Positions 17,469 to 55,602 of a stretch of 64,000 bases of DNA are shown one piece after another (position 1 is the first letter of the stretch; each line of letters starts with the position of its first letter). The notes under the pieces are model-generated. The model ran no database searches. It was not told the DNA's origin and was given only the letters and a program-made list of their open reading frames with translations. Source of the DNA: Sphaerolaimus hirsutus (lineage: Eukaryota > Nematoda > Chromadorea > Monhysterida > Sphaerolaimidae); the NCBI GenBank assembly GCA_964036195.1, contig OZ038453.1, positions 9,749,469-9,813,468 of the forward strand, read 5' to 3'. Made by a program: the position numbers and the translations under genes.

Positions 17469-17744
17469 TTTCGGAGTTTTGAAATTTTTCTTTTTTTTGT
17501 GGTTTACTGTGACCGTGTTCGATTTTGTTGCTCGAGTGATTGTATCGAATATTTTTTACATTAGTACATTACACAAAAGAAATCCGATCGAATATATTGA
17601 GTTTATACATACATGCACGGATGATATTACTGAATTCAGATGACAGCCTTCGACGAATATTTGTGACTCACATTTGACCCCGGCCACAGTAAGATTTCAA
17701 AAAGAAAATTTCAACTTCATGGCACTTTGCCAAGTCGCTTCCAA
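17469..17744. promoter_or_regulatory. Shared divergent promoter, photolyase / deoxynucleoside kinase
   Basis: Only 276 bp separates the start codon of the minus-strand photolyase (17468) from the first ATG of the plus-strand kinase (17745), so this stretch must hold both promoters and both 5' UTRs unless there are untranslated upstream exons. It has no repeat, unlike nearly every other stretch of this size here. No clear TATA or initiator motif was assigned. Divergent control of a DNA-repair gene and a nucleotide-salvage gene is an inference. Confidence 0.55.
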
Positions 17745-20700
17745 ATGCGCCTTTCCTCATCACTCTGTGCAATCCGTCGCAAAACAGTACACGTTCGCCC
17801 AAAAATGAAACGCCTGGCCATAGAAGGGAACATTGGTTGCGGAAAAAGCACCGCCTTATCAAACGTGGCCGCTATATGCGACCGGTTGAAAATTACGCCC
17901 ACACGATCCACTGAGGAGCCCGTGGCTTTGTGGAGAAATGTGCCCGCGCCCGGTGATTTTTAATTCATTTTTGTTGTTTGAGTAAATTTGCGGCTGCTTG
18001 TGGCTCAACTCAAGCAGTTATGTAATTTCTTCCCCAGACCCTGTGAATGTTAAATGTAATGCAAAGTGTCAGAAGTCGTGTAAAATGGCAAACTTGTTTG
18101 CCATTTTACGGAGCATTTTGCAGGGCATTTTACGTGACTTTAGACACTGCACGGCATTTGACATTGTCCCAGACACTGTAAAAGACCATGTAAAACGTAA
18201 AATGTCACGTAAAAGACCGTGTAAGGTGTCCTGTGTACAACAATTTTTTAATCGTATCCAAATGTTTTTGTATCCGAAAACTATGTCAAAAAGTAGGATT
18301 TGGATACAAGTATTTGGATACCTGTTATTCGCTGCAGATGCATCGAGCAGCGGCTACAACATGTTGGACGCATTCTATTCGGACACAAAGAAGTATGCTT
18401 TCGTCATGCAAATTTTGGCTGAGACTAGCACAGCCGATGCCATGTGGTTTGACCCAGACAGCAAAGACCTCGTCAGTTCATGCCTGATTACTAAATAGGT
18501 GGCCGCACTAGGGATGGCCGAAAAAGGTTTTTTTCAACGACAGGATTTTTTGAATAAAAAAACTGTTTTTTTGTAAATGGTTTTATTTTAAAATAAAACC
18601 GTGTTTTTTCTCAAAAGCTCCCAGATATGGCCATGAGTCAACAGATATAGGTAAATCAGACAGGTGACAGTACTTAATGATGTTATATATAGCCATTGAA
18701 TGGCTTTAAAGCCATGGGATAGCATTATATGTGGTGATTTCTGTCAAAAATATCTGTTTTATGTCGACTTATTACAGATATTGCCTTCGAACATTCGTGC
18801 CTTCAAGTGATGTTGGGTGTGGAAAACTGTATAAATAAGGATATAAGAGCAGGCTAACACATGGCAGTGGTGTTTCACACTGTACAAGTATGTGGGGGCA
18901 CATTAGCTGTATATTATATACTACACTAACATATCATGGCTTATTATGACATAATAGCACAAACAAATGGAACATTTAATGCTAAAAATGGTCCAAAAGC
19001 AATGAAAACCACCACAAATGGTAAATTGCAGGTGAAATTGCAAGCTTGCGCGCAAAAAAAATTGCAAAATACCTAGTGCTTAGTACTAAAAATTTTGACC
19101 AAGGTTTAAAAAAAAACGGTTTTGATGGTCGGTTTTTTTATAAAAATAAAACGTTTTTTTATTTTAAAAAAACCTTTGAAAAAAACCTTGGCCGTCCCTA
19201 GGCCACACACACTAGTTGACATGTGTCAACTGGTCTGCGTCAACTCAGATTTCTACTTCATGTGTCGCGCAGCTATCTCCAAATGCACATGCTACCATGT
19301 TGATAAATAAGTTTTACGGTAAGTGCATTTTGGAAAATCGCTGTGTGACACAAGCCGAAATCTGAGTTGACACAGACCAGTTGACACACAAGTGTCAACT
19401 AGTGTGTGGGCCGACATAAAGGTTCAAATAATTCTTCAAGCTGCCATTTCCCAGTACAATGTCTACAAGGTATTTGAAACTTTATTTGCCTTCAACTGGA
19501 TGGACATGTCCACTTAATTAGACCACTTATCAATACCAGCGCTTACTTCACGGTTATATTTTTTGCTTCGGGTGTTCTTCTGTATTTCACTTTCCAGCCA
19601 GTGTTGTGGGCACACGAGCGCACTCTAGCGGCGCGCGAGCGCATTTTCACGCGAGTCGCCGATCAGAATGGGTTTTTGGACGACTGCCAACGCGCTGTGT
19701 TACGCTACCACAATGATTTTGGTAGAACAAATGCGCTGAAACATTTGTACAGATATGATGTGGTCGTATACTTGAGGTGTGTGCTTAAATGTTTGTGTAT
19801 GAACAAATTTAGAGCCGTTGCAAATTGATAACTGGACTGGATGGATTGAATTTTTGGACATTTTTGGCAATACATTATATATATATTTTACATTACATGG
19901 CTACCTCATAAATTTATGTTCCCTTATTTGTTATTCATTTATTTTTCCTCCACACATCCCATAAACTAATTCCGAAGCAAATCTGAAGAGTTTTTCAAAT
20001 CAACCCGGTCAGGGGTATTCTAGATTTCGGCCCTCCGGGGGTTGGATAGATAGCAAATCGCTCCTCCGGAGGGATAGATAGCTAAAAAATTTTCTGGGGG
20101 GGTTGCGGGTAGGGATGGCAAGCGCTTTTTTCAAGCGCTTTTTTTTTAAAAACGCCGCTTTTTTTTAAAAAAAAGCGCAAGGGTCCCAGCGCTTTTTTTA
20201 TAAAAAAGCGCTGGCAAAAATTTTAGTACCCATGCACTAGGTATTTTGCAATTTTTTTTGCGCGCAAGCGCATAATATCACATGCAAATTGTCAAATTGG
20301 TGGTTGTTTTCATTGGTTTTGTAGCATTTCAGTGGCATTGCTTCTATTCCTGCATGGTATTATGTAATAATAAGTTGAGGAGATATGTCAGTGTAGTAAA
20401 TAATATCCAGCCAATGTGCTTCCACTTTTCTACAGTGTGAAACATCACTGTCATGTATTAGCCATCGTTTATAGCCAAATTTAAGCCCTATTCCATGCCT
20501 ACCTTCACTTGCAGTCAAGAAACATTCAAAAACGGCAATATACATAATTATTCGACATAAAATTGGAATTTTTTTGGCAGAAATCAGCACTTATAATGCT
20601 ATCAGATGATTACATAGCCATTGTATGGTTATATATCATCACAAGTACTGTCACTTGTCTGATATACCTGTATATATTGACTCAGGACCATATTTGGGAG

Positions 20701-26262: not shown

Positions 26263-26579
26263 TTACTCGCTTATCGTTTCCCCACTGATAGCCACTGCAC
26301 CTGGGGGCTGTAGCAGACCCTGTAAAATACCCTGCAAAATGGCAAACGTACGTTTGCCATTTTACATGGCATTTTACACGACCGTTGACGCCTTGCATGA
26401 CGTTCGCCATTTTACAGGGCATTTCACAGGGCCTGGGATTGGCACCTGGCCGCATTTCCAATCCTCTACCACATTCCAAAGTCGAAACTTCCCGCCGCCG
26501 TTCCGAAAACAGCTCGTCCGGTGTATTTATCTCATCCAGCTGCAACTGCAGCCGGCAGCCGCCCAGAAACAATGTGCCG
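26263..26579 (-). CDS. C-terminal exon(s) of an unrecognised protein, split by an introner-like element
   Basis: Minus strand. An acceptor after tttgcag at 26580 opens a GC-rich frame reading GTLFLGGCRLQLQLDEINTP to CGRGLEMRP (26579-26446). It is followed by a 145-bp element (26445-26301) that starts GTGCC and ends in CAG. Removing it joins the phases exactly and adds GAVAISGETISE before a TAA at 26263-26265. Without removal the element adds its own lysine/cysteine read-through. The upstream exons and function are unknown; the charged, hydrophobic-rich sequence gives no family. The coding call rests on composition, splice borders and phase agreement. Confidence 0.5.
26304..26445 (-). mobile_element. 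Introner-like CWG element
   Basis: Read on the minus strand it starts GTGCCAATCCCAGGCCCTG and ends in CTACAGCCCC, with CAG on both sides (target duplication at 26446-26448 and 26301-26303). The interior is words such as aaaatgccatgtaaaatggc and their inverted complements. It sits exactly between two in-phase coding pieces, so it would be spliced as a 145-bp GT-AG intron ending in the duplicated CAG. Confidence 0.7.
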
Positions 26580-26746: not shown

Positions 26747-26869
26747 GGGGCAGTCCCAAGCCCTGTAAAGTGTAAAGTAAAATGTCATGTGAAATGTCAT
26801 GCAATGTTCTGTAATAAAATCTTTTTTGTTGACACTGAAGTCTACACTTTACAGGGCTCGGGACAGCCC
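26747..26869. mobile_element. CWG-targeting element, GGGGCAGTCCC ends
   Basis: The ends are GGGGCAGTCCCAAGCCC and GGGCTCGGGACAGCCCC, flanked by CTG on both sides (26744-26746 and 26870-26872). Both ends are of the GGGGCAGTCCC type, unlike most copies, which pair GTGCCAGTCCC with GGGACTGCCCC. The interior has the aaaatgtcatgtgaaatgtc words. Confidence 0.65.
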
Positions 26870-27581: not shown

Positions 27582-30500
27582 ATAATCCACTCTCGCCATG
27601 ACCTTATCCTAGTCGCCTGCACTAATCCATCCGGCCCACCAATCCCCGCAACGTGCGGCGCTCGCGTGCCCAGCCTCGGGGTAGGTAGGCGGGACTTATC
27701 TGGTGCCAATCCCCGACCCTGTAAAATGCTCTGTAAAGTGTCAAATGTCACGCAAAGTGTCAAAAGTCATGTAAAATGTCCTGCAAAATGGCAAATGCTC
27801 TGTAAAATGTAAAATGTCAAGCAAAGTGTTAAAAGTCATGTAAAATGTCATGCAAAGCATCAAAAGTCACGTAAAATGGCCTGCAAAATGGCAACTCGGT
27901 TGCCATTTTGCAGGGCATTTTACATGACTTTTGATGCTTTACATGACATTTTACATGGCATTTTACATGACTTTTCACGCTTTGCATGTCATTTCACAGG
28001 ACACTTTCCACGACTTTCTCCACTTCACACGACACTTGTCACTTTACATGACATTTCCCAGTGTCCGGGACTGGTCCCCCCTAGTCCAACATGGTGGCCG
28101 GGCCGCTGGTGACGGCGACCACGCCGCGCGCCGTCGGCGAGGCGGAATTGCAGCGCGAAAGCGGCGGCATTGAATTCGCCATCGCTGATAGGTACAAGTT
28201 GTGCAGCTGGAGCGAGTATGAAGTTGATGGAAGGGATGAAAAGTACCTCTTCCCGTTGGTTTGATTGGGTTTTTTTTGGTTGTTTTGGGTTTGGGAGTCG
28301 TCCTGGGGCTAGTAAACAAGTCCAGTGAAGTGTCAAGTGCCAAATGTCATGCAAATTTGTCAATGGTAAAAATTTGTACAGCTACCGGAAAACGGAAAGG
28401 TAAAAATCTTTCACTTGCTGGAAACCGGAAAGATGTGAAAATTTTGGCGATTGAAGACAAAATTTCTCCTTAATAAGCGATTACAGCTCGGGCGTAAAAT
28501 TCCAGCGTAAAATTCCATCGCAAAATTGATTACATAAAAGTGGATGATGATACAGGTCTGCAATTTTTCATGGAGAATATGTTTATCAATACCTTCATTG
28601 TGTCCGAGAGTCATCATCCACAGTCACTGCCATTTGATAATAGAAATTCAAAAATTTCCATTTTATGTTGGAATTTTACGCCAGCGGAAGAAAAGTCAAT
28701 TCTACGCCAGGTGATTGCATGCAATGACATAGCGTAGAATTGATTTTTCTTCAGCTGGCGTAAAATTCCAACGTAAAATATAAATTTTTGAATTTCTATT
28801 ATCAAATGGCAGTGACTGTGGATGATGACTCTCGGACACAATGAAGGTATTGATAAACATATTCTCCATGAAAAATTGCAGACCTGTATCATCATCCACT
28901 TTTATGTAATCAATTTTGCGATGGAATTTTACGCTGGAATTTTACGCCCGAGCTGTAATCGTAGCATAAGTGAAAAAAACCGAAAACGAAAAATGGCAAG
29001 TTGACACCATAATCACCAATACATCCATTAAAAAAAAATTTCAGCTGTCCAGAGGAACTGGATTGTTGCGGGCGGGTGTGCTGCGACCCGGCACCATTCA
29101 TGCCGCTGTGGTGAGTTACTTTTTCATAGTGATGTACTGGGAATCCTCGAATAAATGCCCGGGGGAGTTATGGTATTTCTTTTAATAGAAGAGCGCCGTT
29201 CTATATATTTTTTTCTTTTCAATTGTTCTACCTGCCGTTCTATTGGATGCTGCCATTTCATTTATTTCATGGCTGGAAAAAGTGTCAAAACCTGCCGTTC
29301 TATTGGCGGTGTTGTTCTATTTTAGGTATGCCGTTCTATTAGAATAAATAAGATATTATTTTACCAGACTTCATTGACCATGGAATTATCAAAGGGAAAA
29401 GTTTATTTCGGCTGAATATTCAGAGAAACGTGTGACCGATTTACTGTATGAATTGGGTTCCAATAACTGCATTAGTTAATCAATAATCAAGTAGGAATTC
29501 AATGAAACAATCAATGGAGCACATATTAGTGAAAATAGACTGCAAGATGATAAAAACTGAGTAAAATACTCGAATAATCCCTTAAAAAAACCCCTTAACA
29601 ACCCCCCCTTCCTATTGAATACACGACGAAAGCCCCCAGCGTATAACTCCCCCCGCTGTGGTGGGCACGAACGAATATTACCGTACATACTCGGATAACC
29701 TCGAAGAGACTCGAGACTATTCGAGGGGGGGATAATTCAAGGAGGGAATTATTTTTCCGTAAAAAAATTGAAGCATGTTTCTAACTAACGTGAAATTTTT
29801 GTCCGAATTGGATGCAAAAGCTTTATCATATTTCTAAGGGGGGGTTATTCCAGGGGGGAATTATTTTTTATACACTCGTCTAAATGGGGGAAAGTATTCA
29901 AGGGGAGGAATTTTTCAAGCCGGGGGAATTATCCGAGTATATGCGGCATTTCAATTTAAGTACTCAAACTAAAACTTCAATACTTGACCCCCTTCGACCC
30001 CGTCTGCAGGCTTTGGCTACTGCTGCTTTTATTGTTACTGCTGCTTTTGTGCATTTGCTGCGGCCTGGCTGCTTACATCTGGTACAAGTGCCGCAAGAAG
30101 GTCGTCAAAACTGTGGAAGGTCGGTGGTTTAGTTTGTGCAGATTTTGAGGCACACTTTGCGAAAATCCGAGTGTCTTGATCGAAATGAATTTATTATTGT
30201 CGTTCAGTAAACTATTGATTGAACCATTCAATTATAATAATCGCTGGTAAATGTTTCGTCTCAATATTTCGAAACTTCACCTCACCACCAACATTTAATC
30301 ACACCCGCATGAACGCACGTCCACACAAGTCTTTCTACTTACCTGCAACATTCGCATGCGAACCCGAAAAGTCCCCTCGATCAAACCCCCAAAAATAACA
30401 ACCCGCAACCCCCAGCCCACTCAACATCCACCCAACCGCACTACACCCGACTGCCGGGCACGGGAATGTGTCCCCCCTCCCTGGCCGCGCGCACCGGTGA

Positions 30501-31828
30501 AAGGTGCCCTAGATGCCCTCCAATGGCGGGTGAAGGGCACCAGCGTAGGGCGACTGTAGGGCAGTCGCTGCACAGACCCAAGCCGATGCGACCTACGCCC
30601 AGTGGGTTGATCGTGCCCGGACCGGATATGTGGCGTGAGTGAGAGAGGCTTTTTTTGGGAGGGTGTGTCTGCTGGTAGTCCCGGACACTGTAAAATGTTA
30701 GGTCAAATCTATGCGAAGTGTCAATCAAAATACGAAAATATTTTATTACAGAATTTTTTAAATTTGACGTATTTGTATACCTAATAAATTTTACAATAAT
30801 TGGTCAAATTTGTACAACATTTTGCATGACATTTGTCAAATTTGTACAGCATTTTGCATGACACTTGACAAATTTGTACATACAACATTTCGCATGACAT
30901 CAGTCAACTCTTACACAGCGACCCGATCCGAATCGGCGCGCACGCCCTCCCCCTCCCCACTGCACGACAATTGCCCCCTGTGCCACACGGCGGGCGACAC
31001 GACCTACGGCGGCAGCGGCACCCTCTTCAACACGACCACCAACAGCAAGTCCGCCGTGGGCGACAACAACGCGTCGGACGCGCGCCGGCCCACCGCGCTG
31101 GTGCCGCGGCACGGCGACAGCGAGCAGCGACTGCACGAAGCCCCGCCGCACCGGGTCCACGCGAGCGGCGTCTATGAAACCGTGCAGATGTATCACAAGA
31201 GCGAGGAGAGGCGGCTGAGCCATGAGGGACCAGCCACTATTGGGCTTATAGCCGTCAATGACGCTGGGCGGCATGATGATCAGGCATGGGATTTAATTAG
31301 CCCGACGCCCGTGTTTTTGGGTTGCCCGATTAGTTGTGGCGTATTTCAGACTTTTGCTGCTCGATTCAATGTGGTTTTGTTAGAATCTTGGCGGCCCGCA
31401 CACTAGTTTACGCATGTGTGTCAACTGGTCTGTGTCAACTCAGATTTCGGCTTGTCTAGCACAGCTATCTCCAAATGCGGCAATGTTGAAAAATAAATAT
31501 TACGGCAAGTGCGTTGGAAGATCGCTCTGCGGCGACACGTGAAGCCGAAATCTGAGTTCACACAGACCAGTTGACACACATGTGTCAAGTAATGTGTGGG
31601 CCGCCATTATAGTCGAACAGAAACAAAATTGATCCAGACAGCTACTAATTTTTGACACACTGAATCGGTCCGACCAAAATGATTTGTGGGGCTAATTAAA
31701 TTTCGTCTCAGGAGGTCCTATTTGATCAACGGGAAGTTGCGCCCGATGGAGCCACACGCACTTTAAATCGAATGAAAAGTGCTGATAGTGTGCACTCACT
31801 TGATATGGCTGATAGGTGGATGAATTAG
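27582..31828 (+). CDS. Single-pass membrane protein, WBP1/VOPP1-like, 5' incomplete
   Basis: Exons: 27582-27680 (weakest), 28085-28242, 29045-29110, 30010-30119, 30560-30634, 30919 to about 31253, 31712-31828 with stop TAG. Phases agree at every join; the end of exon six is the least certain. The ectodomain ends ENCPEELDCCGRVCCDP, then a membrane segment of eleven leucines followed by CICCGLAAYIWYKCRKK; a long serine/proline-rich tail follows, with a CPLC pair and the end SVHSLDMADRWMN. A CCGxxCC knot immediately before the membrane and CCG within it match the WBP1/VOPP1 family, whose members are WW-ligand endolysosomal or plasma-membrane adaptors. No PPxY motif is visible in the tail, so the function is uncertain. 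The signal-peptide exon was not found. A CWG element lies in intron 1. Confidence 0.65.
27703..28080. mobile_element. CWG element in intron 1 of the WBP1-like gene
   Basis: Starts GTGCCAATCCCCGACCCTG after CTG (27700-27702) and ends GGGACTGGTCCCCC before CTA (28081-28083, a changed CTG). The interior is a long imperfect hairpin of aaaatgtcatgcaaagcatc-type words. The next exon begins right after CTAG at 28085, so the element's distal target copy supplies that exon's acceptor. Confidence 0.7.
28330..29015. repeat. Remnant of a CGGAAAA hAT-like element around a foldback
   Basis: Words aaaacggaaaggtaaaaatc (28385-28440) and aaaaccgaaaacgaaaaatg with gttgacacc (28975-29010) flank the perfect-looking foldback at 28480-28959. 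Ends have decayed (tttgtcaatgg on the left), so no target duplication can be read. In intron 2 of the WBP1-like gene. Confidence 0.5.
28480..28959. repeat. Near-perfect 480-bp foldback
   Basis: Arms 28480-28705 and 28735-28959 are almost exact inverted complements from attacagctcgggcgtaaaa inward, with a loop of about 25 bases around gcatgcaatgacatagc. A diverged relative is at 52460-52857, where the assembly gap begins. No coding capacity; the frames of both arms are mirror readings of each other. Confidence 0.85.
29190..29345. repeat. Repeated CCGTTCTATT word
   Basis: The decamer ccgttctatt occurs four times in 150 bp (near 29198, 29231, 29294 and 29330) within AT-rich sequence of an intron. 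No ends or target duplication were identified. Confidence 0.45.
29689..29945. repeat. Diverged CGTATTTCCTCGAA-family element
   Basis: Ends tactcggataacctcgaaga and ttatccgagtatatgcgg frame blocks of ggggggataattcaagg and gggggttattccagggggga. This is the layout of the large CCTCGAA family (for example 38493-38962, 40735-41141, 60724-61155). It lies in the intron before the membrane-segment exon. Confidence 0.5.
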
Positions 31829-32248
31829 AGTGAATTTGCATGGATTTTTTAGGTTGTTTGCTTTTTTAGGTTGGTTTTTTAATGTTTTTCTCTTTGATTT
31901 TGCACTATAATGTTTGCTTGCCCGTATTGTTAATTTTAAAATTCACAGTTAATTGCATGAATGAATTTACGGCGGTCGGGGTTTAGATTCCCATAGGTAT
32001 TCATAAAGATTTGCAGTGCCTTGCATGTTTCACTAAACAAAAACTCACAAAATCACATAATTAAGCATGATAAAAATATCATTCAAAATTAGTTGTAAAA
32101 AGAAAAGTTGCATAAAAAAAGTTACAGTGAAAACAGCGATACAAGTTATGAGCAAAACCTTCCCGCCAAATGTCCCCCCTTTTTACGCAGTATCACTTTT
32201 CACCGACGCCAAAACCCCCCAAAACCCCCCAACCCCCCCCCCCCACAG

Positions 32249-32442
32249 AAAAGTTCGTTCCCTCCCCCCTGGACGAAACATTCATCCCGGCCGCTCAACC
32301 GATTCAAGTGCGCGGCCATTCGATCGACGAAGTGAGCCGCGAGCAGAGGGCCGCTCTGGCAGCCGAGCCGCCGCAGCAGCAACAACAAAGGGCACACATC
32401 GCTTACTATAGGCAAGGGGTTGATGATGTGCCCGCTTATTGA
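32249..32442 (+). CDS. Terminal coding exon, VPAY family, no intron
   Basis: After a C-rich tract and acceptor ccccacag, the frame reads KFVPSPLDETFIPA, HSIDEVSREQRAALAA, a run of glutamines, and ends YYRQGVDDVPAY with TGA at 32440-32442. It matches the split exons at 35113 and 53751 in FVPSP, H-S-x-DE-S-R and the C-terminal YYRxGxDxVPAY. It needs an upstream phase-1 donor; the WBP1-like exons at 30010 and 30560 both have one, so it could be an alternative last exon of that gene, or belong to a separate one. Function unknown; the conserved C-terminus suggests a short binding motif. Confidence 0.6.
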
Positions 32443-33789: not shown

Positions 33790-34032
33790 GAGCCAGTTCC
33801 GCAAATTGAGAAGTGATAAGTAAAATGGCAAATGCGTAGTGAAATGAGAAGTGAAAAGTGCATTGAAAAGGAAATTGACAAAAGCGAAGGGAAATTACTT
33901 TTTATTGTTATTTTTGTTACTTCGCTTTTGCCAATTTACCTGCCATGTCACTTCTCTTTTGCGAATTTTCTTCTCAATTCACTTTGCATTTGCCATTTTT
34001 ACTTCTCACTTCTCAATTTGCGGAACTGGCAC
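33790..34032. mobile_element. CWG element, GCAAATTGAGAAG subtype
   Basis: The ends are GAGCCAGTTCCGCAAATTGA and its complement ending GGAACTGGCAC, flanked by CTG on both sides (33787-33789 and 34033-34035). The interior is a hairpin of aagtgaaatg/catttcacttc words rather than the aaaatgtc words of the main subtype. Another copy with CTG duplication is at 58301-58516. Confidence 0.75.
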
Positions 34033-35112
34033 CTGATCGATCAGCACTTTACTGAATTACCCATATCAATATTCAATACATTTTTTTTACACAATATCAA
34101 ATATTACTAATCGTAATGTTAGGATTTTATCCTGTGATCTTGTATTTTTGTTTAACCCAAACGGTTCTGAATGCCCATGCCATCAGGTTTTTTTACAAAT
34201 ATCAGTTTATACGTAAATAAATATTTACAGTTTAATGAAGCACTCAGGATCGTTTCGTTCAGATCAGTTCCGTATCCAAATATTATGTTTACCGAAAAAT
34301 TTGTCAAGAATATGAATGAAATGGGCATTCAGATCTATTTATCGACCCTATGCATGTTTGCGCTGATTAATAATGATAATATTTAGTGTTATCCTACTGA
34401 AAAAGCACGTTTTGCTGTGTAACCAATTAAAATTATATCCCGACATTGTCAACTGCAAAAACAGTTTTTGATGTTACAGCAGTTGAAATAACGGTTTTAA
34501 TCATAACATTTACACTTTTGATCATTTCAGTTTTAAGCAAAAAAAGTTTTTCCCTTACTCAGGTAAAGAGACTAATTTTGACATGAAATCATCACCATTG
34601 GACAAAAAATTCAGAGTAGACAAAAAGACAAATATCTACAACTTTGTACTGTCATTCCTTTGTTCTGTTTTAAAGACGAAAAATAAGGTTTATTAAGGCA
34701 TACATGCTTAGATATTTTTTTCATTTTAATTCTGTACAGTTACAACAGTTTTATAATACATCAAAATACAGATTGTTTTTCAAATGTGTAATGTTTTTGC
34801 AACTCTTACATTCACTTATAATACTTACATATTTTCTTTCAACTTTTCAGTGTTGAATGTTCTCTTGCCCTATTCACCCAATTTCTCCATGCTTCACCGT
34901 AACCCGCGGAATTAATGAAATAAAAGCGAATGAAATGCGGTGCTCAGTTGTTGACATCACTTACCATTTGTCCTCAATAAATAACATATTGTGAAATACC
35001 CGTAGAAATTTCGTGTATAGGTTTTTATACCCACAATAGCCTAACTACTAAACCCTAACCAATCAAAATGAGCTCCAAACAACCAAAAACCTCTACCTAA
35101 AAAACCCCACAG

Positions 35113-35594
35113 GCCATTCGTTCCCTCGCCCATGGAGGAGTCGGTGTTGTCGAGGCCCGTGGCGCACACGGCGCAGGTGCACAGCGTGGACGAGATCAGC
35201 CGGCCGCAGCAGCCGCGCATGGCCATACTCCAGGTGCCAGTCCCGGACCCTGTGAAATGCACTGTAAAATGTGAAATGTCATGGAAAATGCCAAAAGTCA
35301 TGGAAAGTGTCCTGGGACATGTCCAATGTGATACAAAGTGTCAAAAGTCATGTAAAATGCACTGCAAAATGGCAACTGAGTTGCCTGTTTACAGGGCATT
35401 TCACATGACTTTTGACACTTTGCATGACACTTGGCATTTTGCAGGACATTTTACCTGACTTTTGACACTTTGCATGTGATTTGACATTCTACAGGGCATT
35501 TTACAGGGTTTGGGACTGCCCCCAGGATGACGCCGTCAAACACACCAAGCCGCTGTATTATAGGCCCGGCTTTGATAATGTGCCAGCGTATTGA
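35113..35594 (+). CDS. Terminal coding exon, VPAY family, split by an introner-like element
   Basis: Acceptor ccccacag opens the frame PFVPSPMEESVLSRPV, HSVDEISRPQQPRMAILQ (35113-35233). It is cut after CAG by a 292-bp element (35234-35525) and resumes DDAVKHTKPLYYRPGFDNVPAY with TGA at 35592-35594. Phase 0 on both sides, GT and AG at the borders. The related exon at 32249 runs through the same place without interruption, which argues that the intron was gained. An upstream phase-2 donor is needed and was not identified. Function unknown. A near-identical copy is at 53751. Confidence 0.65.
35234..35522 (+). mobile_element. Introner-like CWG element in a VPAY exon
   Basis: Starts GTGCCAGTCCCGGACCCTG and ends GGGTTTGGGACTGCCCC. 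CAG precedes it (35231-35233) and follows it (35523-35525). The interior is a long imperfect hairpin of words like aaaatgtgaaatgtcatgga and tgacttttgacactttgcat. With the trailing CAG it forms a 292-bp GT-AG intron. The splice donor lies in the element and the acceptor in the target duplication. Confidence 0.85.
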
Positions 35595-37227
35595 ATCGGG
35601 ATTTGGGTTGGGGATTTGGATGGGATGGGTTTAGAGGGGATTTTTATTTTCTTTGTTTGGCAGTGGTATGTTTCGTTCATTTCTGTTTGCATGGTGCCTT
35701 TTTGTGAATTATACCTAATGATATTCGCATGTGTTTCATTTTTACCATCTTTTTATTGGAATTTTTTATTAGTTAGCGTTTTCAGTATACCTAATTTTTC
35801 CCGGAATGTATCAAAATATCGTGTTTCTACGTACATAATATGGTCAACCTTGGTATAAATTTGTCTATCTTTTCTCTGTGTTTATGTATGCAAATAAAAA
35901 TGTTTAAATTCCCCTTCGCGAAATGTTTGAACATATCAGGTCTTCGCGGTGCCACATTTTCACAAAATGTGTCGAAAATCGATCACAGAAAGCAAATAAT
36001 GTATCCAAATGGATGGATTTTGTTCCACCGGCACTCGACATCAATCAATCAAAATAGAAGTTATCAATACATAAAGATAAACTGGTGCGATCTAGAGACA
36101 TGTAGTGGGCCATACTGCATGCAGTGTACCTCCATCAGATACATTTATAGCGTTGGAAAAATATTTACAGGATTTTGTCAAAATAATTTATGAGGAAGGA
36201 TGTGTATTATGTTTTCCAGGATACCATTCAACAGTATTCTAGATTAGGTATTTAAAAGTGAGGGTATTTATATTCAGCTTGTTATTCATAACATTGATGC
36301 TGGAAGCAAAAAAATGCACTGCCTTGTGCACAGATCGCAATGTTTGCATATGTATACCACATTTCTTCTATTTAATTGTACAGTAATGAAATAAATAATG
36401 AATGTACCTACCATATTTTCTCGAAATACCCCCATGGGGTTTATTTTTCAGAGTGGAAATTTTGAGGTGGGGGGGTGATTATTTCATCAGAAATTTTCAT
36501 GAAATTCATAGTAAAGTGTACGCTTTTATACACCGTAAACAGGTAATCAACGTGTCCAAGTACAGTTGGACATATCAACGTTAGAAAGTAGGGACATGAC
36601 CGCTGAGTATATCAATTATATCAATATAAAGTAGGGACATGACCGCCAAGTAAATATATCAATTATCACCGCCGGTCACACTGTATGTTGTGAAAAAAGC
36701 GGGTCCGTATGAAAGTTTGCTCTATCTAATTGGCAAATTTCCAATCTGCGGGAATGGATCTAAAGGGGACAGAGTGTCCTTTTTCAATAAAGAAGCGGAC
36801 AGGCGAGCCATATGCAAAAAACGTTTTTGCTTAAGCAAAATTTTACGAAATTTTTTTTTATCAGTGCTCATATCAATATATTTTCCGCGCCCGTGCCGCG
36901 GCGTTTTCCCATCGCTTCATAATTTGATGGCTGCGGTGCCTGCGCGTCCATTGCGTACTCATTCAGTCGATATTATCTATCTGCGTAAATCAATCGTTGT
37001 GTATCAATCAAGTTAGGAATTGACACTGCCGAATCTACGAATTTTCACCACCGCATGCATATACTTTCGCGGCGGGAATTGTGTAAGCTATTTGTGTACG
37101 ATCTGCTCTATCGGAAAGAATGAGTAAACAACTTTTGCATTTATAGCAAACTGGCCTGTCGCATTGTTTTGCATTCGACCGGAATTTTCACAATCCAAAA
37201 TTTACGTTTACTCGCCCTCATTGTGGT

Positions 37228-37409
37228 CACGCACACTAAAAAGTACACCACCGAAATTTGGGAAACTCGTAGACTTTTTTGAACACATTTGAGTTGACCA
37301 CAATGAATGATTTTTATCGCCGTCAACAGTAGTTCACAGACTGTCATTGTGGTGAACTCAAAATTGTGTTCAAAACAGATTTATGAGTTCCCCAAATTTC
37401 GGTGGTGTA
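37228..37409. repeat. Hairpin MITE, CACTAAAAAGTACACCACCG
   Basis: The left arm acaccaccgaaatttgggaa and the right arm ttccccaaatttcggtggtg are inverted, with an inner pair agttgaccacaatga / cattgtggtgaact. About 180 bp. The same hairpin is at about 57378-57559 in copy B, so it predates the duplication. It lies just upstream of the secreted-protein gene and could be in its promoter. Confidence 0.7.
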
Positions 37410-37514
37410 CTAGTATCTATTTCCCACCCTCACTAAAATACACTCCCCAACCCGACACATTTTTCCAGCCAAAAACATCCAACCAAACAATCTCCCTCAC
37501 TACAAAACCACCAA

Positions 37515-40278
37515 ATGCATTCGCTATTCTACCGCACACTGGCTTTACTCTGCGCCGTTCGGGCGTCGGGCGGCTCCGAGCGCTCGTCGGGCGAGAACGA
37601 CTGGTGCCAGTCCCAGACCCTGTAAAATGCCCTGTAAAATGTGAAATGTCACGCAAAGTGTCAAAAGTCATGTAAAATGCCCTGCAAAATGGCAACGGAG
37701 TTGCCAATTTAGCAGGGCATTTTACATGACTTTGACACTTTGCGTGACACTTGACATTTTACAGGGCATTTTACAGGGTCTGGGACTGCCCCCTGGGCGC
37801 CGGAGAGCCGCGCGTTGAAGCAGCGCGTGTTGGACTTGGGTATTGGCAACAAGTTGGAGCCGAAGAGTTTGGAGTTGGGTGGCAATTTGGATGGCAATGG
37901 CAATGCGAATGGCAATGGCAATGGCGTATCGGGGGAACAGTTTCAAACACTCTCGCCACTGCAGGTGGGCTGGCTTGGGTTTTGCTTACACCAATAGTGA
38001 CCAGAATACAGTAAATGCCGATTTAACGTGTTTGCTTAAATAATTGCCCTGGAGAATTTTTATCGTTGGACTTTCTTGAGCGGGACTACTCAAGAGGGGG
38101 GATTTTTCAAGGGAGGGGAATGATTTTTTCGTCTAAGTTTTCAAGCACGTTTGTGTCAAGTCAACTGATTTCATGAAATATGCTATATTAACTACATAAG
38201 TTGCAATTTTTATCCATATTATACTCAACAAATTTATCATTTGCCTAAATAAAGGGCGAATTATTTTTTCTCACGTATCTAACAGGGGGGAATTATTCAA
38301 CAATGGGTATTATTCAAGGTGGAATTATTAAAGGAAATACGGCGTTTTTTCTGGTATATTGCATCCGCACCTTTTATGCATCCCCCTAGTCTCAAGAAAA
38401 CATCGATTCCACTATACACATAACTTGACCACAACCAACCAAAATCGGTTTCAAACATTTTCAGTATTTTCATTTTCATCCAAATGTCAATCTACCGTAT
38501 TTCCTCGAAATACCCCCCTCGTTCTACCCCCCCCCCTCGTTCTACCCCCCCCCCCCTCGTTCTACCCCCCCCCTCTCGGGACCACTATGAAACAATCACC
38601 CCCCCCCCCTCGAAATACCCCCCCAAATTGAGTGTAAAGGGAACGTACATGACAATAACTGTAGTTTGTGTTTTGTGTAATGCAGAACAGACGTTAAAAC
38701 AATGTTGGTGTCACGTTAGAACAGGGTTATAAATACCGTCTACATACTAATATAAGTCTACATAACCTTATAAATGGCGGTTTTTGTTGTATTTTTCGAC
38801 GTCTGCGTACGTTTCAGACGACAATTTCGTACTGGGATTCAAAAAATTGTTCTTGTGAAATAATAAACCCCCCTCGAAATACCCCCCTCGTTCTACCCCC
38901 CCCCCCCTCGAGACCACTATGAAACAATCACCCCCCGGGGGGTATTTCGAGGAAATACGGTATGACTAATCTCTCGACAAAAAAAGCCATCTTCTCCTGT
39001 CAACTAAAAACCCATTCAATCGACCACCAGTCTCAGTTCAGTTCACCGTCGGTCAACTCAGTAACATAGCGTACCTATCCACCCCAGCCACAACCCTTCT
39101 CCCAACCCCCCCCCACCCCCCAGTTACCCGACGACGAGCCAGTAATGCTGTGCGTGTGCACGGACTTCTTCTGCTACGCGTCGTCCATGCCGCGCGAGGA
39201 GCTGAACCAGCGACGCAAGAGGGACGCGTCCAAGCTCAGCGGCACTTGTCCCGTGCCTTGGGCTGATGGGGAGGGTGGAATGGTGGCTGGTGGGTGTTGA
39301 TAGTATTGGTGGTTCGCACACTAGTTGACACTTGTGTGTCAACTAGTCTGTGTCAACTGAGATTTCGGCTTCACGTGTCGCACAACGATCTCCAAATGCG
39401 CATCCGACACGGTTGAAACATAAATATTGCAGAAAACGCATTGTAAGATCGCTCTGCGACACGTGAAGCCGACATCTGAGTTGACACAGACCGCGTCAAC
39501 TAGAGTGCGGGCCGCCATTATTGCGTGTCTAGGTGTCACTCCCAGACCCCTGTAAAGTGTCAAATGTCAAGCATAGTGTCAAAAGTCATGTAAAATGTCA
39601 GGAAAAGTCCAGTATAGAATAGAAGAAAATTTAACAAAATTTTACAGGGGCTTTTTCGGGGACTGGGAGTGACCCAAAGAGATGTACGTTCAAATATTTT
39701 TATACAGGCCTGCATAAGTATGTACCCAAGTCATCCTTAATCGCCCCAATGAAAGAGTACATGTTTACCTAAGCCACGCACCCACTCCTTACACCATTTT
39801 GTAAATGGGCGGAGCCAACCCTTCGCAGCCAGGGGTAAATGTGTTAAAGACCCTGTAAAATGTCATGTGTATCCAAATCTTATTTTATCGTATCCAAATC
39901 TTATGTTTTTGTATCCAAGTATTATGTCAATAAGTAAGATTTGGATACACATGACACTTTACAGGGTTTTTACATGAGATTTGACAATTTACAGGGTGTT
40001 TTACATGACACATGACATTTTACAGGGTCTTTTACCTGACTTACAGGGTCTTTTACAAGGTCTGGGTGACGATGACTCCCCTTGACAGTAGCCCATCAAA
40101 CATAGGTGACCCAATTGAACGCCGAGCAGCCGATGATGCCCAAATCGACAGCACAAGCAGCGTAAATCGGCACGCAGCCGTCGAAAACGCGTGGGGTGAT
40201 GCCGTTTCTGGCATCGTGCCAAATTTGCCGCGGCTGAGAATGTGCCCCAGAGGAACGCAGTGCACTTTGAGGCTGTGA
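37515..40278 (+). CDS. Secreted cysteine-containing protein, copy A, four exons
   Basis: Exons 37515-37603, 37808-37964, 39124-39293, 40089-40278; phases agree and the total is 606 nt, 201 residues. It begins with a signal peptide, MHSLFYRTLALLCAV, then an acidic spacer, a run of NG/GN dipeptides (NLDGNGNANGNGNG), VMLCVCTDFFCYASSMPREE, a tetrabasic QRRKRD site typical of furin cleavage, SGTCPVPW, and a C-terminal RMCPRGTQCTLRL. Six cysteines lie after the signal region. This looks like a processed secreted ligand or peptide precursor, but I recognise no family. Intron 1 is a CWG element; intron 2 contains CCTCGAA-type elements; intron 3 holds a hairpin MITE. Copy B at 57663 keeps the same frame throughout, which supports the gene model. 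Confidence 0.75.
37604..37792 (+). mobile_element. CWG element serving as intron 1 of the secreted-protein gene, copy A
   Basis: Starts GTGCCAGTCCCAGACCCTG and ends GGGTCTGGGACTGCCCC, flanked by CTG on both sides (37601-37603 and 37793-37795). Removing it restores an uninterrupted frame ENDWAPESRALK. Because the target is CTG, not CAG, the duplication gives no AG, and the first acceptor that keeps the phase lies 12 bases downstream (AG at 37806-37807). The spliced product would then read ENDC-RALK, five residues shorter than the ancestral one. Confidence 0.75.
38493..38962. mobile_element. CCTCGAAATACCCCC family element
   Basis: The ends are TACCGTATTTCCTCGAAATA and TATTTCGAGGAAATACGGTA, fully inverted and bounded by TA. 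The interior has gttctacccccccc repeats and a core with gaacgtacatgacaataact. Similar copies with the same core: 55203-55590 and 60724-61155. Related copies lacking that core are at 40735-41141, 48743-49035 and 60222-60648. No transposase. Confidence 0.8.
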
Positions 40279-40734
40279 TCGCGTGTTTTCGAAATATTTT
40301 TCGTGATTTGAGCGAGTTCAAAGTGTATTTCTGCCGGTATTTTTTCACTTCATTTTAAGTGACATTATTTTATAGTTGATGTAAATACGTAGGTACTGTT
40401 TATTTAACAGATATAATTTAAGTGATTGTAAATTTTTGGTCTTTCTGGCAGCTCATGTGGTAGTATGAGTAGGTATGTAAATGTCATCACGATTTATCAC
40501 ACTCAGGTCTCAAGAACAATCAATATGGTAAATGTTGTCAATCAATAGTGTAGCATCTGATTGAACTTCTAAACAATACTACAAAATTTTTGTATACCGT
40601 ACCTAGTATACTGGCTTCAATCGACTGCTATACTAGCTAGTGTTTAAGAATGTGTTCATAAAATGAAACCAAGGCACAATAATGCAAAGCAAATTCTGCA
40701 GAGCAGAGACAATTTGGTAGGCAAAAACGTTACA

Positions 40735-41141
40735 TACCGTATTACCTCGAAATACCCCCATGGGGGTTTATAATTTCGCCAGCAAAATTTGAGGGGGGGT
40801 TAATTCGAGGGGGGGTATTATTTCGTCAGAAATTTTCGTGAAATTCATAGTAAAGAATACGCTTTTTCATACACAAAAACGGTAATAAACGTGAGAAAGT
40901 AGGTCATATTTGGGCTATAGGTGTACATCTGTACACAAATGAGTGTAAAAGTGTCACTGCAATCCAAATTAGTAGTAATAAATACATCATGTACATTGCA
41001 TACACGATGTCCATCATTCAGGAGGGGGGTATTTCTATGGGGGGGAGGGTTTATTATTTCCCCAGCCCATTTTGAGGGGGGGGGGGTAATTCGAGGGGGG
41101 GGTAAATTCAAGGGGGGGGGGTAATTCGAGGTAATACGGTA
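40735..41141. mobile_element. CCTCGAAATACCCCC family element
   Basis: The ends are TACCGTATTACCTCGAAATA and TTCGAGGTAATACGGTA, with blocks of gagggggggttaattcgagg on both sides of a 200-bp core. Bounded by TA. It marks the right limit of the duplicated segment; its counterpart at 63804 runs off the window. Confidence 0.75.
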
Positions 41142-43272: not shown

Positions 43273-46200
43273 TCAAATAAGCGTCGCATTTATTCCATTT
43301 TGCCTGCCCACCCCCATCAACAAATCACTGTCGTTGGCATAAATTGGGCTGAGGTCCTGACTATTTCCTTTCCTCATGCCGGATTCCACGCTGAGGGGGG
43401 TTTGGGCGCCGCCGCGGCCGAAAACTTGTCGTAGTAAAACGGATTTGTCGTAAGTGAGTTGGTTGATTAGGGCCGTTTTGTCCGCTAGCTCCTGCGCGTG
43501 GGATTTTAGGGATTTATTTGAAGTGTTTGGCGGCACGCGTACTACATGTCAACTGGTCTGTGTCAGCTCAGATTTCGGCTTCACGTGTCGCATAGAGATA
43601 TTTCAATGCACTTGTCGTAATATTTATTCTTCAACATTGCCGCGTGTACATTGGTAGATCGCTGTGCGACACGTGAAGCCGAAATCTGAGTTGACACAAA
43701 CCAGTTGACATACTTGTGTCAACTAGTGTGTGGGCCGGGTTTCGTGCAGAAAGAAAGAGGAGGGAAAAGTCGCGCCAAGTGAAAGTGTTAGACAAATTTG
43801 TCAAGTGTCAGGTTACGTATGAAAAACTTGGACAAAAATAGTTTCGCTTTTTTGTGTGCGGGACTATCTCCTGGTGCCAATCCCAGACCCTGTAAAATGT
43901 AAAGTAAACTGTCAAATGTCATGAAAAAAGTCACGCAATGTGTCAATTGTCATGACAAATGTCAAGTAAAGTGTCAATTGTCATGCAAAGTTCAGTAATA
44001 AAATCTTTTTTGATTTGATCGACAGTTTACATGACATTGGACACTTAACTTTACACTTCACAGGGCTTGAGACTGGCACCACAACGACATAAATAAATAA
44101 TATTATTGTACCAGTAACCCCCAAAAACCCACCCAATCACCAACCCCCCCCCCCCCGAAACCCACCAAACTCATCAACTGGTTCTGCCGTCTCAACCACT
44201 GCGCACTGGACTTCTCACTATCACCCCGATCCCCCTCAAACTCCGCCTCCTCAATCAGGGGTCGATGTCCATTGGGCAGGGCTGCCGCGGGCGCGTCCAT
44301 CAAAGAGCGACTTGCGGAGTCTAGGCGGTCTGTGCATTTGTGCAGTCGCTGCACGCGGCACTCGTGCATTGCGGTGTCCTGGGGGGGGGGGGGTAAAGGG
44401 GGTTTGTGGATGCTGGTAGTGGGAGGAAAGTGAGAAGTTTACTCTTCCTTGAAATTTTCACCTGTCACTTCAAAATTTTATTTACTTTTTCATTTGCGGA
44501 ATTGTCACTGCTTTTGCTGTGGTTGTTTTTTTAGTGAAAATTCAATGGCCCAAATTATGCTGCGCACACTAGTTTACTGCCAGATTTTTGTGAACTCATA
44601 AATTGGCTTTAAACACATTTGAGTTTACCAGAATGATATGCCTGTCAACTGCAGTTGATGGGGATTAAGAACAACTCGTTCCAGGTGGTAGTTCCAAAAA
44701 CTGTAAAGTGTAAAGTAAAATGTCAAATGTAAAGTAAATTGTCAATTGTGATGCAAAGTGTCAAACACGTTACCTTACATTTGACACTGCATGTCAATTG
44801 ACACTTGACTTTACACTGTACTTTGCATTTGACACTTTACTTTACACTTAACAGGGCTTGGGAGCGTTATGACGCCAGTAAACTCAAATGCGTTCAAAGC
44901 CAATGGCAATAAACTAGTGTGCACACACGCATTTAAACCCCTCCCATCCCAATCACCCCAACCCCCCAACCCACCAGGGGCACCACATGTCCATTCCTAT
45001 TAGCCGCGTGCATTCTCCTACTGACATTCTCCAGCCGCTCGTCGTACCACTGCACCAGTCTCTGGGCGTTGGCACGGCCCGACTGCAACAGGTCCCGTTC
45101 CCAGTTCAGGAGGCAGGCAGCTTTGCGCTGGGGGGGGGGGTTAATTGGGGTTGTGGGGGTGGGTGCGAGTGTGTGGAGGGTTGAGATGAGTCAGGGACGT
45201 ATCCGCGATTTTTGAGCGGGGGGGCTGCTTGTTTACGGAGGCCGGCGAACGGGGGGGGGGGCTCAGCCCCCCCTAAATTTTTCCCCTATATAGGGACGGA
45301 AAGGCGTTTTGGCGCTAGCGCCATACAAAGGCGCCACGCCATGGCGCTATTGGCGTTGGCGCCAGCGCCAGGAGCCGCTTTATATGTATGTAAAAATGCA
45401 TACATATGCAGCGAAATTCGCAAAAATGTGTTTATTTCCGAGGATATTGGTTCACAGGGGCCGATCCGTTGAAAATACAACGCATGGGGAAGAAATTGCG
45501 CTGTTGCGCGCAAAATTTTAAAGAAACATCGGAAAATATATAGGAAAATATGCATTTTCCGGGACTTTTTGGGTCTCACCCCGGGAATTTTTCATAGCGC
45601 TTTTCCATCACTAGTTGACACTTGTGTGTCACATGGTCTGAGTCAACTCAAATTTCGGCTTCACGTGTCGCAGAACCATCTCCAAATGCACATGCGGCAG
45701 CGTTGCAAACATAAATGTTACGGCAAGTGCATAGGAAGATAGTTCCGCGACACGTGAAGCCGAAATCTGAGTTGACACAGACCAGTTGACAAGTGTCAAC
45801 TACAGTGTGGGCCGCCATTGAGTCGGCCTGACGTCATTGAGATGAATATGATTGAAACTGCATTTTGTATATTTAATTGATTCTAGGCTCGTCTCGCAAG
45901 CAGAGTAGGGCATCATTCTATAGTTGTTAAAACGTATTTACGTTTACTCGATAAATACGTATACTCGAGTACTGCGTAAATACGTTTACGTTTCCCCGCG
46001 AATAAAAATACCGGTACCCACTTACTCGCGTACTTTTTGAAAATGAAAATTTTAACAGGACATCGAAAAGGACATAGGTATTTACAGACAGAAAGTGACA
46101 AACATTGAATATTGTCCCGGGAAATACTTATCAGGAGCAACCCCCCAGATATTTGTTCCAGGGTAAAAATAAAACAATAGCTTTACATTTTCTGTGAGGA

Positions 46201-51752: not shown

Positions 51753-51893
51753 GTGCCAGTTCCGGACCCTGTAAAATGCCCTGTAAAATGTTGAATATCA
51801 TATGCAAAGCGTCAATAGTCCTGTAAAATGCCCTGCAAAATGGCAACTCGGTTGCCATTTTACAGGGCACTTTACAGTCTCCAGAATCCCCCC
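51753..51893 (+). mobile_element. Introner-like CWG element in the 5' leader of the ShKT gene
   Basis: Starts GTGCCAGTTCCGGACCCTG and ends CCAGAATCCCCC. CAG precedes it (51750-51752) and follows it (51894-51896), and the ShKT start codon is only 7 bases further on. It would act as a 144-bp GT-AG intron in the 5' UTR. The interior is a hairpin with aaaatgccctgtaaaatg. Confidence 0.7.
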
Positions 51894-52857: not shown

Positions 52858-53057
52858 NNNNNNNNNNNNNNNNNNNNNNNNNNNNNNNNNNNNNNNNNNN
52901 NNNNNNNNNNNNNNNNNNNNNNNNNNNNNNNNNNNNNNNNNNNNNNNNNNNNNNNNNNNNNNNNNNNNNNNNNNNNNNNNNNNNNNNNNNNNNNNNNNNN
53001 NNNNNNNNNNNNNNNNNNNNNNNNNNNNNNNNNNNNNNNNNNNNNNNNNNNNNNNNN
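52858..53057. other. Assembly gap of 200 N
   Basis: Exactly 200 ambiguous bases, probably a fixed-size placeholder. It falls inside the second arm of a foldback and at the left border of duplication copy B, both of which are hard to assemble. Any frame drawn through it is meaningless. Confidence 0.98.
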
Positions 53058-53750
53058 AACCTATTAAAATTATCTCCCGACATTGTCAACTGCAAAAACA
53101 GTTTTTGATGTTACAGCAGTTGAAATATCGTTTTTCATCATAACATTTACACTTTTGATCATAACAGATTCAAGCAAAAATTTTTCCCCTAACTCAGGTA
53201 AAGAGACTAATTTTGACATGAAATCATTACCATTGGACAAAAAATTCAGAGTAGACAAATAGGCAAATATCTACAACTTTGTACTGTCATTCCTTTGTTC
53301 TGTTTTAATGACGAAAAATAAGGTTTATTAAGGCATACATGCTTAGATATTTTTTTCATTTTAATTCTGTACAGTTACAACAGTTTTATAATACATCAAA
53401 ATACAGATTGTTTTTCATATGTGTAATGTTTTTGCAACTCTTACATTCACTTATAATACTTACATATTTTCTTTCAACTTTTCAGTGTTGAATGTTCTCT
53501 TGCCCTATTCACCCAATTTCTCCATGCTTCACCGCAACCCGCGGAATTAATGAAATAAAAGCGAATGAAATGCGGTGCTCAGTTGTTGACATCACTTACC
53601 ATTTGTCCTCAATAAATAACATATTGTGAAATACCCGTAGAAATTTCGTGTATAGGTTTTTATACCCACAATAGCCTAACTACTAAACCCTAACCAATCA
53701 AAATGAGCTCCAAACAACCAAAAACCTCTAACCTAAAATAACCCCCACAG

Positions 53751-54169
53751 GCCATTCGTTCCCTCGCCCATGGAGGAGTCGGTGTTGTCGAGGCCCGTGG
53801 CGCACACGGCGCAGGTGCACAGCGTGGACGAGATCAGCCGGCCGCAGCAGCCGCGCATGGCCATACTCCAGGTGCCAGTCCCGGACCCTGTGAAATGCAC
53901 TGTAAAATGTGAAATGTCATACAAAATGTCAAAAGTCATGGAAAGTGTCCTGGGACATGTCCAATGTGATGCAAAGTGTCAAAAGTCATGTAAAATGCCC
54001 TGCAAAATGGCAACTGCAGGACATTTTACATGACTTTTAACACTTTGCATGTGATTTGACATTTTACAGGGCATTTTACAGGGTTTGGGACTGCCCCCAG
54101 GATGACGCCGTCAAACACACCAAGCCGCTGTATTATAGGCCTGGCTTTGATAATGTGCCAGCGTATTGA
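53751..54169 (+). CDS. Terminal coding exon, VPAY family, split; duplicate of 35113
   Basis: Coding parts 53751-53871 and 54101-54169 (TGA) encode the same protein as 35113-35594. The intervening element (53872-54100) is about 63 bp shorter because part of its hairpin is lost, yet its GT and CAG borders are unchanged. Coding sequence is conserved while the surrounding repeats differ, which suggests both copies are under constraint or the duplication is recent. Confidence 0.65.
53872..54097 (+). mobile_element. Introner-like CWG element, duplicate of 35234
   Basis: Same ends (GTGCCAGTCCCGGACCCTG and GGGTTTGGGACTGCCCC) and the same CAG target copies (53869-53871 and 54098-54100) as the copy at 35234, with an internal deletion in the hairpin. 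It was inherited through the segmental duplication rather than inserted independently. Confidence 0.85.
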
Positions 54170-55202
54170 ATCGGGATTTGGGTTGGGGATTTGGATGGGA
54201 TGGGTTTAGAGGGGATTTTTATTTTCTTTGTTTGGCAGTGGTATTTATGTTTCGTTCATTTCTGTTTGCATGGTGCTTTTTTGTGAATTATACCTAATGA
54301 TATTCGCATGTGTTTCATTTTTACCATTTTTTATTGGAATTTTTTATTAGTTAGCGTTTTTAATATACCTTATTTTTCCCGGAATGTATCAAAATATCGT
54401 GTTTCTACGTACATAATATGGTCAACCTTGGTATAAATTTGTCTATCTTTTCTGTGTGTGTATGCAAATAAAAATGTTTAAATTCCCCTTCGCGAGATGT
54501 TTGAACATATCAGGTCTTCGCGGTGCCACATTCCAACAAAATGTGTCGATAATAGATCACAGAAAGCAAATAATGTATCCAAATGGATGGATTTGATGCC
54601 ACCGGCACTCAACATCAATCAATCAAAATAGAAGTTATCAATACATAAAGATAAACTGGTGCGATCTCTAGAGACATGTAGTGGGCCATACTGCATGCAG
54701 TGTACCTCCATCAGATACATATATAGCGTTGGAAAAATATTTACTGGATTTTGTCAAAATAATTTATGAGAAAGGATGTGTATTATGTTTTCCAGGATAC
54801 CTTTCAACAGTATTCTACATTGTTTAAAAGTGAGGGTCTTTATATTCAGCTTGTTTTTCATAACACTGATGCTGGAAGCAAAAAAATGCACTGCCTTGTG
54901 CACAGATCGCTATGTTTGCATATGTATACCACATTTCTTCTATTTAATTGTACAGTAATGAAATAAATAATGAATGTACCTACCGTATTTTCTCGAAATA
55001 CCCCCAGGGGGTTTATTTTTTCAGAGTGGAAATTTTGAGGGGGGGTTATTTCGAGGAGGGGGGTTGATTATTTCGTCAGAATTTTTCACGAAATTCATAG
55101 TAAAGTGTACGCTTATATACACCGAAAACAGGTAATCAACGTGTCCAAGTGCATTTGGACATATCAACGTTAGAAACTAGGGACGTGACCGCCGAGTATA
55201 CC

Positions 55203-55590
55203 TACCGTATTTCCTCGAAATACCCCCCCCTCGAAATACTCCCCCCCCCCAGATTGAGTGTAAAGAGAACGTACATGACAAATACTGCAGTTTGTGTTCT
55301 GCGTAGTGCAGAACACACGTTAAAACAATGTCCGAATCACGTTAGAACAGTGTTTATACCATCTACATACTAATATTAGTCTACATAACCTTATAAATGG
55401 CGGTTTTTGTTGTATTTTTCGACGTTTGCGTACGTTTCAGACAACAATTTCGTACTGGGATTTAAAAAAAGGTTCTTGTGAAATAATAACCCCCCCCCTC
55501 GAAATACCCCCCCTCGTTTGACCCCCCCCCCCCTCTCGGGACCACTATGAAACAATCACCCCCCGGGGGGTATTTCGAGGAAATACGGTA
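55203..55590. mobile_element. CCTCGAAATACCCCC family element, specific to copy B
   Basis: The ends are taccgtatttcctcgaaata and tatttcgaggaaatacggta. The core with gaacgtacatgacaaatact matches 38493-38962. Copy A lacks it at this position (near 36640), so it inserted after the duplication, or was lost from A. Confidence 0.75.
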
Positions 55591-55602
55591 TATCAATATA
55601 AA

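Follow-up and report, generated by a model that had tools for sequence, protein, structure and literature searches.

The 64,000-nucleotide stretch of DNA analysed here (the window) has a GC content of 41.6% and a CpG observed/expected ratio of 0.89. The copepod Eurytemora carolleeae, with 33.0% GC in its genome and a mean ratio of 0.5 in its genes (PMC11706791), was considered as the host but not adopted. The window contains a 200-N gap at 52858–53057. The sequence that follows the gap (53058–64000) is largely collinear with 34421–40846, in blocks of ~84 to 94% identity (gaps counted) with large insertions in between. It may be the other, unmerged haplotype placed in tandem or, alternatively, a segmental duplication. 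On the minus strand, a DNA photolyase gene is found in two pieces at 6053–7136, and two separate pieces of it match solved photolyases that are class II-like (the class was assigned by eye). A reverse transcriptase frame with a GIY-YIG domain ahead of it occupies 9422–12287 of the same strand, an arrangement known from some Penelope-like elements; a protein search with this frame scored 7992 candidates, none of them at an E value of 0.001 or better. A weak match to an APC suppressor domain, below the curated Pfam cut-off, is found at 44936–45190, also on the minus strand. Together with the likewise sub-threshold kinase matches at 17667–18498 (see below), it suggests that the DNA is probably from an animal; the structure of the genes, that of the photolyase among them, points to a eukaryote.

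The coding exon at 35113–35594 is interrupted by a member of a family of inverted-repeat elements. Its features, together with those of the related elements in the window, are listed in Table 1. The reading frame of the upstream part is picked up again at GAT 35526 and ends at the TGA stop codon 35592–35594. When 292 nt (the element with a single CAG) are taken out, 35233 is followed directly by 35526 and the translation has 62 residues, PFVPSPMEESVLSRPVAHTAQVHSVDEISRPQQPRMAILQ-DDAVKHTKPLYYRPGFDNVPAY. The 292 nt are not a multiple of 3, and the frame read into the element meets a stop codon at 35456–35458. A letter-by-letter check bore out the original prediction that removal of the element and one CAG restores a phase-0 frame up to the TGA, with a tail ending in VPAY. 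The inverted repeat, the GT start and the CAG on both sides are likewise as first described, but the element itself is 289 bp long and not 292 bp, the larger figure including one CAG. A protein search with the frame running through exon and element returned no candidate.

Table 1. Interrupted exons, paralogous exon and members of the element family (window positions; a slash within a motif marks an element or splice boundary)
Feature	Position	Strand	Basis or comment
Uninterrupted paralogous terminal exon (KFVPSP...VPAY)	32249–32442	+	Alignment score 111 vs shuffle maximum 54 of 2000
Upstream exon part (PFVPSP...AILQ), ends CTC CAG	35113–35233	+	Letter-by-letter reading, alignment
CAG to the left of the element (duplicated 3-bp target, copy 1)	35231–35233	+	Sequence
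289-bp MITE with hairpin structure, starting with GT (proposed 5′ splice site)	35234–35522	+	Repeat, fold, end comparison
CAG to the right of the element (duplicated target, copy 2), source of the proposed 3′ splice site AG	35523–35525	+	Sequence
Downstream exon part (DDAV...VPAY) and TGA stop	35526–35594	+	Sequence, alignment
35234 insertion in the second locus copy	53872–54097	+	63-bp deletion, 8 substitutions, both ends unchanged
Exon parts flanking the 53872 insertion	to 53871; 54101–54169	+	Copy comparison
Second family element inside a coding exon (37515–37603 / 37796–37964)	37604–37792	+	Sense-strand CTG target, no junction AG
Counterpart of the 37604 insertion, diverged (300 bp)	57752–58051	+	Copy comparison
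CAGTTCCGCAAATTG-type related element	58301–58516	-	Present here, absent at 38049–38051 of the other copy
Family member between CAG copies, GT...CAG	51753–51893	+	Second CAG ends 7 nt before ATG 51904; proposed 5′UTR intron
Family member, minus-strand CAG/GT.../CAG	26304–26445	-	Exact excision keeps the frame briefly open to a stop; predicted
Related element, minus-strand CAG/GT.../CAG	33790–34032	-	Outside any recognised gene
Family member, CTG on both sides (plus strand)	26747–26869	-	Both ends GG, GT absent
Family member with CTG to its left and CTAG to its right	27703–28080	+	CTAG ends 6 nt before ATG 28091

A related exon without the element is found upstream (32249–32442). It codes for 63 residues, compared with 62 after exact excision, and has the same blocks. 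Alignments with shuffled sequences score on average 25.3 (standard deviation 5.0), far below the value of the authentic pair, and the kinship on which the original prediction had staked itself is real. Its use of this exon as the state before insertion holds in part only: the exon is an intronless relative but not an exact empty site, because the part of the paralog opposite the insertion point is rich in Q and aligns poorly. The true state before insertion would read as uninterrupted CTCCAGGATGAC. Ahead of the two paralogous exons, acceptor-like AGs lie at distances of 5 and 4 nt from a common TTC codon, so the phases of their upstream introns differ. By eye, the 32249 exon could be the last one of a multi-exon gene spanning 28085–32442 and starting at 28091, in which the exons ending near 30633 and starting at 30904 join in one phase.

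The element begins with GTGCCAGTCCC and finishes with GGGACTGCCCC. It consists of one long inverted repeat whose 149-nt arms are 80% complementary and separated by 1 nt, with sub-repeats of 19 and 50 nt inside it. Folded as RNA together with its flanks, it forms a single hairpin of -174.4 kcal/mol (z -14.15; none of 100 shuffles folded as well) that places both ends side by side. That this interval is a chance product was rejected, the hairpin and the matched triplets both being far above expectation. The view that CAG belongs to the inverted repeat instead of being a duplication was rejected as well: the flanking triplet is either CAG or CTG, yet it is equal on both sides in seven copies of the family, and a relative described below has an empty site with a single triplet.

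Twelve independent two-ended copies of the family were examined; the elements at 53872 and 57752 are copies of those at 35234 and 37604 and were not counted. The best family ends score at least 15 of 19 positions, the maximum for all ends in 10 shuffles of the window being 14. Identical triplets flank 8 of the 12 copies: seven are CWG (26304, 26747, 33790, 35234, 37604, 51753 and 58301) and one is CAT (605). The triplets are unmatched at 27703 (CTG and CTA), 43874 (CTG and CAC), in an inner pair at 713 (CAG and CTG) and at 44685, where the right end is eroded. The chance of 8 matches in 10 copies (the 713 pair and 44685 omitted) is 1.6e-13. This value overstates the significance, since the right ends of 26747 and 51753 were set manually and lie one base off the first guess. 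Eight ends whose partner is not settled (16409, 22797, 25615, 30676, 39533 with its copy at 62547, 42122 and 48059) and the end at 43870 are outside this count. A scan of all inverted repeats found matched triplets at 127 of 7704 pairs, most often TTA (14) and in four cases CTG; swamped by element-internal and simple repeats, it does not by itself single out CWG. Duplication of the target is directly visible at the 58301 element, whose natural empty site in the other copy of the locus has a single CTG (38049–38051) where the occupied site has CTG...CTG.

In six of the eight triplet-matched copies, one end has GT and the other does not. On the strand that starts with the GT end, five of them have CAG as their triplet (plus strand at 35234 and 51753; minus strand at 26304, 33790 and 58301), and the sixth, 37604, has CTG. 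Besides 35234, the insertions at 51753 and 26304 show the GT...CAG layout in a genic setting, in both cases on genes that are predicted only. One terminus is GGGG in several copies, while the other is GTG or, in some, GAG, GGA or GCG. With lengths of 123–377 bp, inverted ends, no recognised protein and eight independent copies with matched duplications, the family has the properties of MITEs. It also resembles introners, being multi-copy with common ends that coincide, at 35234, with the proposed splice sites. A search for exact matches to the terminus found none in viral and none in prokaryote contigs. Judged by eye, ATG 51904 opens a small secreted Cys-rich protein. At 27703 the CTAG found in place of the expected CTG happens to provide an AG. 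The related element with the CAT duplication extends over 605–934 and harbours the second, nested inverted repeat at 713.

The second copy of the locus allows the divergence of the element to be compared with that of its surroundings. The original prediction had pointed to 53840–54130 as a second site; it does carry the 35234 insertion, but as part of a diverged copy of the same locus and not as an independent insertion. In the comparison of 34421–36611 with 53058–55200, the exon parts differ by 1 substitution in 190 positions, which is synonymous, the element and one CAG by 8 in 229 plus the 63-bp deletion, and the flanks by 61 in 1698 (Fisher P 0.044 for exon versus element, 0.017 for exon versus flanks). 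The element is unchanged over its first 49 and last 33 nt. These figures show signs of coding constraint on either side of the element; they support it without proving it, because the nearest upstream 100-nt windows (34721, 34821 and 34921) are quiet too, with 1, 1 and 0 differences.

A similar pattern is found in a second coding exon. Its frame opens at 37515 as MHSLFYRTLALLCAVRASGG, a signal peptide by eye, and is broken at 37604 by a 189-bp family member lying between two CTGs. After exact excision the frame runs on to 37964, where it is followed by a GTGGGC donor. Between the two copies of the locus, the exon parts differ by 0 of 87 and 4 of 158 substitutions with one 12-nt gap, and the element with one target copy by 26 of 191 with 113 gap columns. 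All five coding substitutions, four in this exon and one in the 35113 exon, are synonymous in the frame obtained by exact excision. With a pooled expectation of 0.236 synonymous per change, this outcome has a P value of 0.0007, the true chance being greater because all five changes are transitions. The target being CTG, the duplication at 37604 cannot supply an AG. Six AGs are present within 37760–37840; only the one at 37807 is in frame, at the cost of four codons and of a change in another one.

In the splice consensus, the exon side reads CAG, so every insertion into a CAG target arrives as CAG/...CAG/. At 35234, the upstream end of the element starts with GTG and creates CAG/GTG where a 5′ splice site is expected. 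The downstream end, GCCCC, followed by the second CAG, makes up a C-rich acceptor, CCCCCAG/G. Transposition duplicated the 3-bp CAG target. We propose that the GTG terminus provides the donor and that the GGGG terminus, read as its complement, puts CCCC ahead of an acceptor whose AG comes from the duplicated CAG. The spliceosome would then take out 35234–35525 (292 nt), exactly the element and one copy of the target, and the resulting mRNA would be identical to the one made before the insertion. The donor (CAG/GTGCCA) shares six of the nine positions of the U1 consensus if G is accepted for A at +3, and is weaker than ideal; four further donors of the window, picked by eye, score 5 to 7. Clean splicing of an insertion in an exon would require a sense-strand target of CAG, not CTG, together with an upstream GTG end. 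On a given strand, CAG accounts for half of the CWG sites, and GTG should come first in half of the insertions, so clean splicing would be expected for roughly a quarter of the exon insertions. In the window, 35234 fits this rule, as do the predicted cases 26304 and 51753, while 37604 is of the CTG kind.

The reading that we favour, with a probability of roughly 0.7, is that a CWG-targeting non-autonomous hairpin transposon, NuwaI-like and of the PIF/Harbinger superfamily, entered the last coding exon and is removed as an intron. Judged from the DNA, the 35234 element very likely behaves as a new intron. The earlier claim that the insertion made the intron finds partial support in the target duplication, the GT of the element, the AG of the duplication, the restored frame and the intronless relative, to which the copy comparison adds the constraint on both sides. 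A point against this explanation is the 37604 copy, which sits in an equally coding exon without an AG at the junction.

In a rival account, which we regard as unlikely, the exon carrying the insertion would be a duplicate of the 32249 exon that is dead or can be dispensed with, the element an ordinary MITE and CAG/GT...CAG a by-product of target choice. The upstream exons of the gene are not established and the acceptor phases of the paralogous exons differ, as a dead duplicate would allow. The 33790 relative, moreover, shows that the CAG/GT.../CAG layout arises without splicing, since it is found there outside any recognised gene. Against a dead exon speak exon parts that stay open and nearly invariant between the copies next to a more diverged element and more diverged flanks, and the similar pattern of the 37515–37964 exon.

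Two other accounts do without exact removal of the element. Its retention in the mRNA, perhaps alternating with splicing, would add 74 residues encoded by the element and replace the VPAY tail. The frame is open from the exon to 35455 and a hairpin of such stability could affect splicing, but in both copies the DDAV...VPAY half has retained an intact frame and stop, and it corresponds to the tail of the paralog; we consider retention improbable. Still less probable, in our opinion, is splicing at other sites (e.g., a donor at 35176 or an acceptor at 35549), with the element being only part of the intron. Frame alone does not fix the exact splice sites, because 26 of the 70 GT/AG pairs near the element ends keep it, including one with the donor CAG/GTGCAC at 35176. 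The listed upstream donors, however, would lose all or part of HSVDEISR, which is conserved in the paralog, whereas the pair at the element ends gives nearly the length of the paralog and retains all conserved blocks.

Removal of the element as an intron has precedents among transposon-derived introns. Work by Huff et al. in 2016 reportedly identified introners of Micromonas and Aureococcus as DNA transposons with inverted repeats and target duplications that contribute splice sites; those hosts are algae. In the accessible text of a wider survey, 548 introner families are reported, in animals from only two groups, with copepods named (Gozashti et al. 2022, PMC9860276). The introners presented there create introns within exons; they are non-autonomous, are enriched in genes and at GC-rich sites, and in many cases possess inverted repeats and short target duplications (PMC9860276). 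The roles are divided in the same way in a Chrysochromulina family, in which the element holds the 5′ site and the target duplication is co-opted for the 3′ site (PMC9860276), so that the original prediction was right in taking its logic, one site from the element and the other from the duplication, as already published. The Chrysochromulina duplications are of 4 bp and the elements have no inverted repeats, whereas the present element is an inverted repeat throughout and has a 3-bp CWG duplication; a CWG family is not named in the accessible part of that text. Introners of the dinoflagellate Amoebophrya share with the present element boundary direct repeats (of 3–5 nt) and inverted repeats able to fold the intron into a hairpin, but, as far as the available text goes, have mostly non-canonical splice sites of many kinds, while a GT-AG pair is available here (PMC7789003).

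The original prediction did not recognise a family with a CWG target. The CWG duplications and the G-rich terminus are in fact those described, in the accessible part of the survey, for the NuwaI group of PHIS (PIF/Harbinger, ISL2EU, Spy), whose 5′-CWG-3′ target duplications were confirmed by empty sites (Han et al. 2015, PMC4482050). In that survey NuwaI was found only in animals, in 16 genomes, and its termini usually start with GGG (PMC4482050). The likeness lies in the CWG target duplication, found here in 7 of 12 copies and with one empty site, and in the G-rich terminus at one end, by which we infer that the family is recognisable as NuwaI-like. The assignment is built on target and termini because no transposase is among the Pfam matches of 20 submitted frames, a small part of those of the window, whereas NuwaI is defined by the transposase of full-length elements; the copies here are 123–377 bp long and have no recognised protein. 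Further differences are that one terminus is usually GTG here and not GGG, and that the 149-nt inverted repeat of the 35234 element is longer than those of NuwaI (12–61 bp). Intron formation is not mentioned in the survey text accessible to us (PMC4482050). In searches of an open-access collection that covers only part of the journals, no NuwaI-type or CWG-targeting PHIS-type origin of introners was found. The splice-site logic is thus already known, but the making of introns by a CWG-targeting element of the PHIS type may be new.

The origin of new introns is a long-standing question, and few intron-making transposons come from animals (two groups in the accessible text of PMC9860276). If the interpretation given here is correct, intron gain in a probable animal would be tied to a named group of transposons, with each splice site explained by the ends and the target. 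It would also follow a rule that can be counted (CAG on the sense strand with the GTG end leading, roughly a quarter of the exon insertions) and for which the CTG insertions are internal controls. GGG to GTG at one end would be the sole change needed to turn the usual NuwaI terminus into an intron-maker. A tentative extension, to which we give less than even odds, is that CWG-targeting NuwaI-type transposons are pre-adapted as animal intron-makers: a CAG target, the C-tract from a G-rich terminus and a single G-to-T change would together make a GT-AG intron, insertions at CTG serving as built-in controls that lack an acceptor. The process would be recent and perhaps ongoing here, since only one of the two copies of the locus carries the 58301 relative. 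Elsewhere in the window, two pieces at 17667–18498 resemble a deoxynucleoside kinase, with matches below the Pfam cut-off, and a diverged copy of a similar element was found by eye between them.
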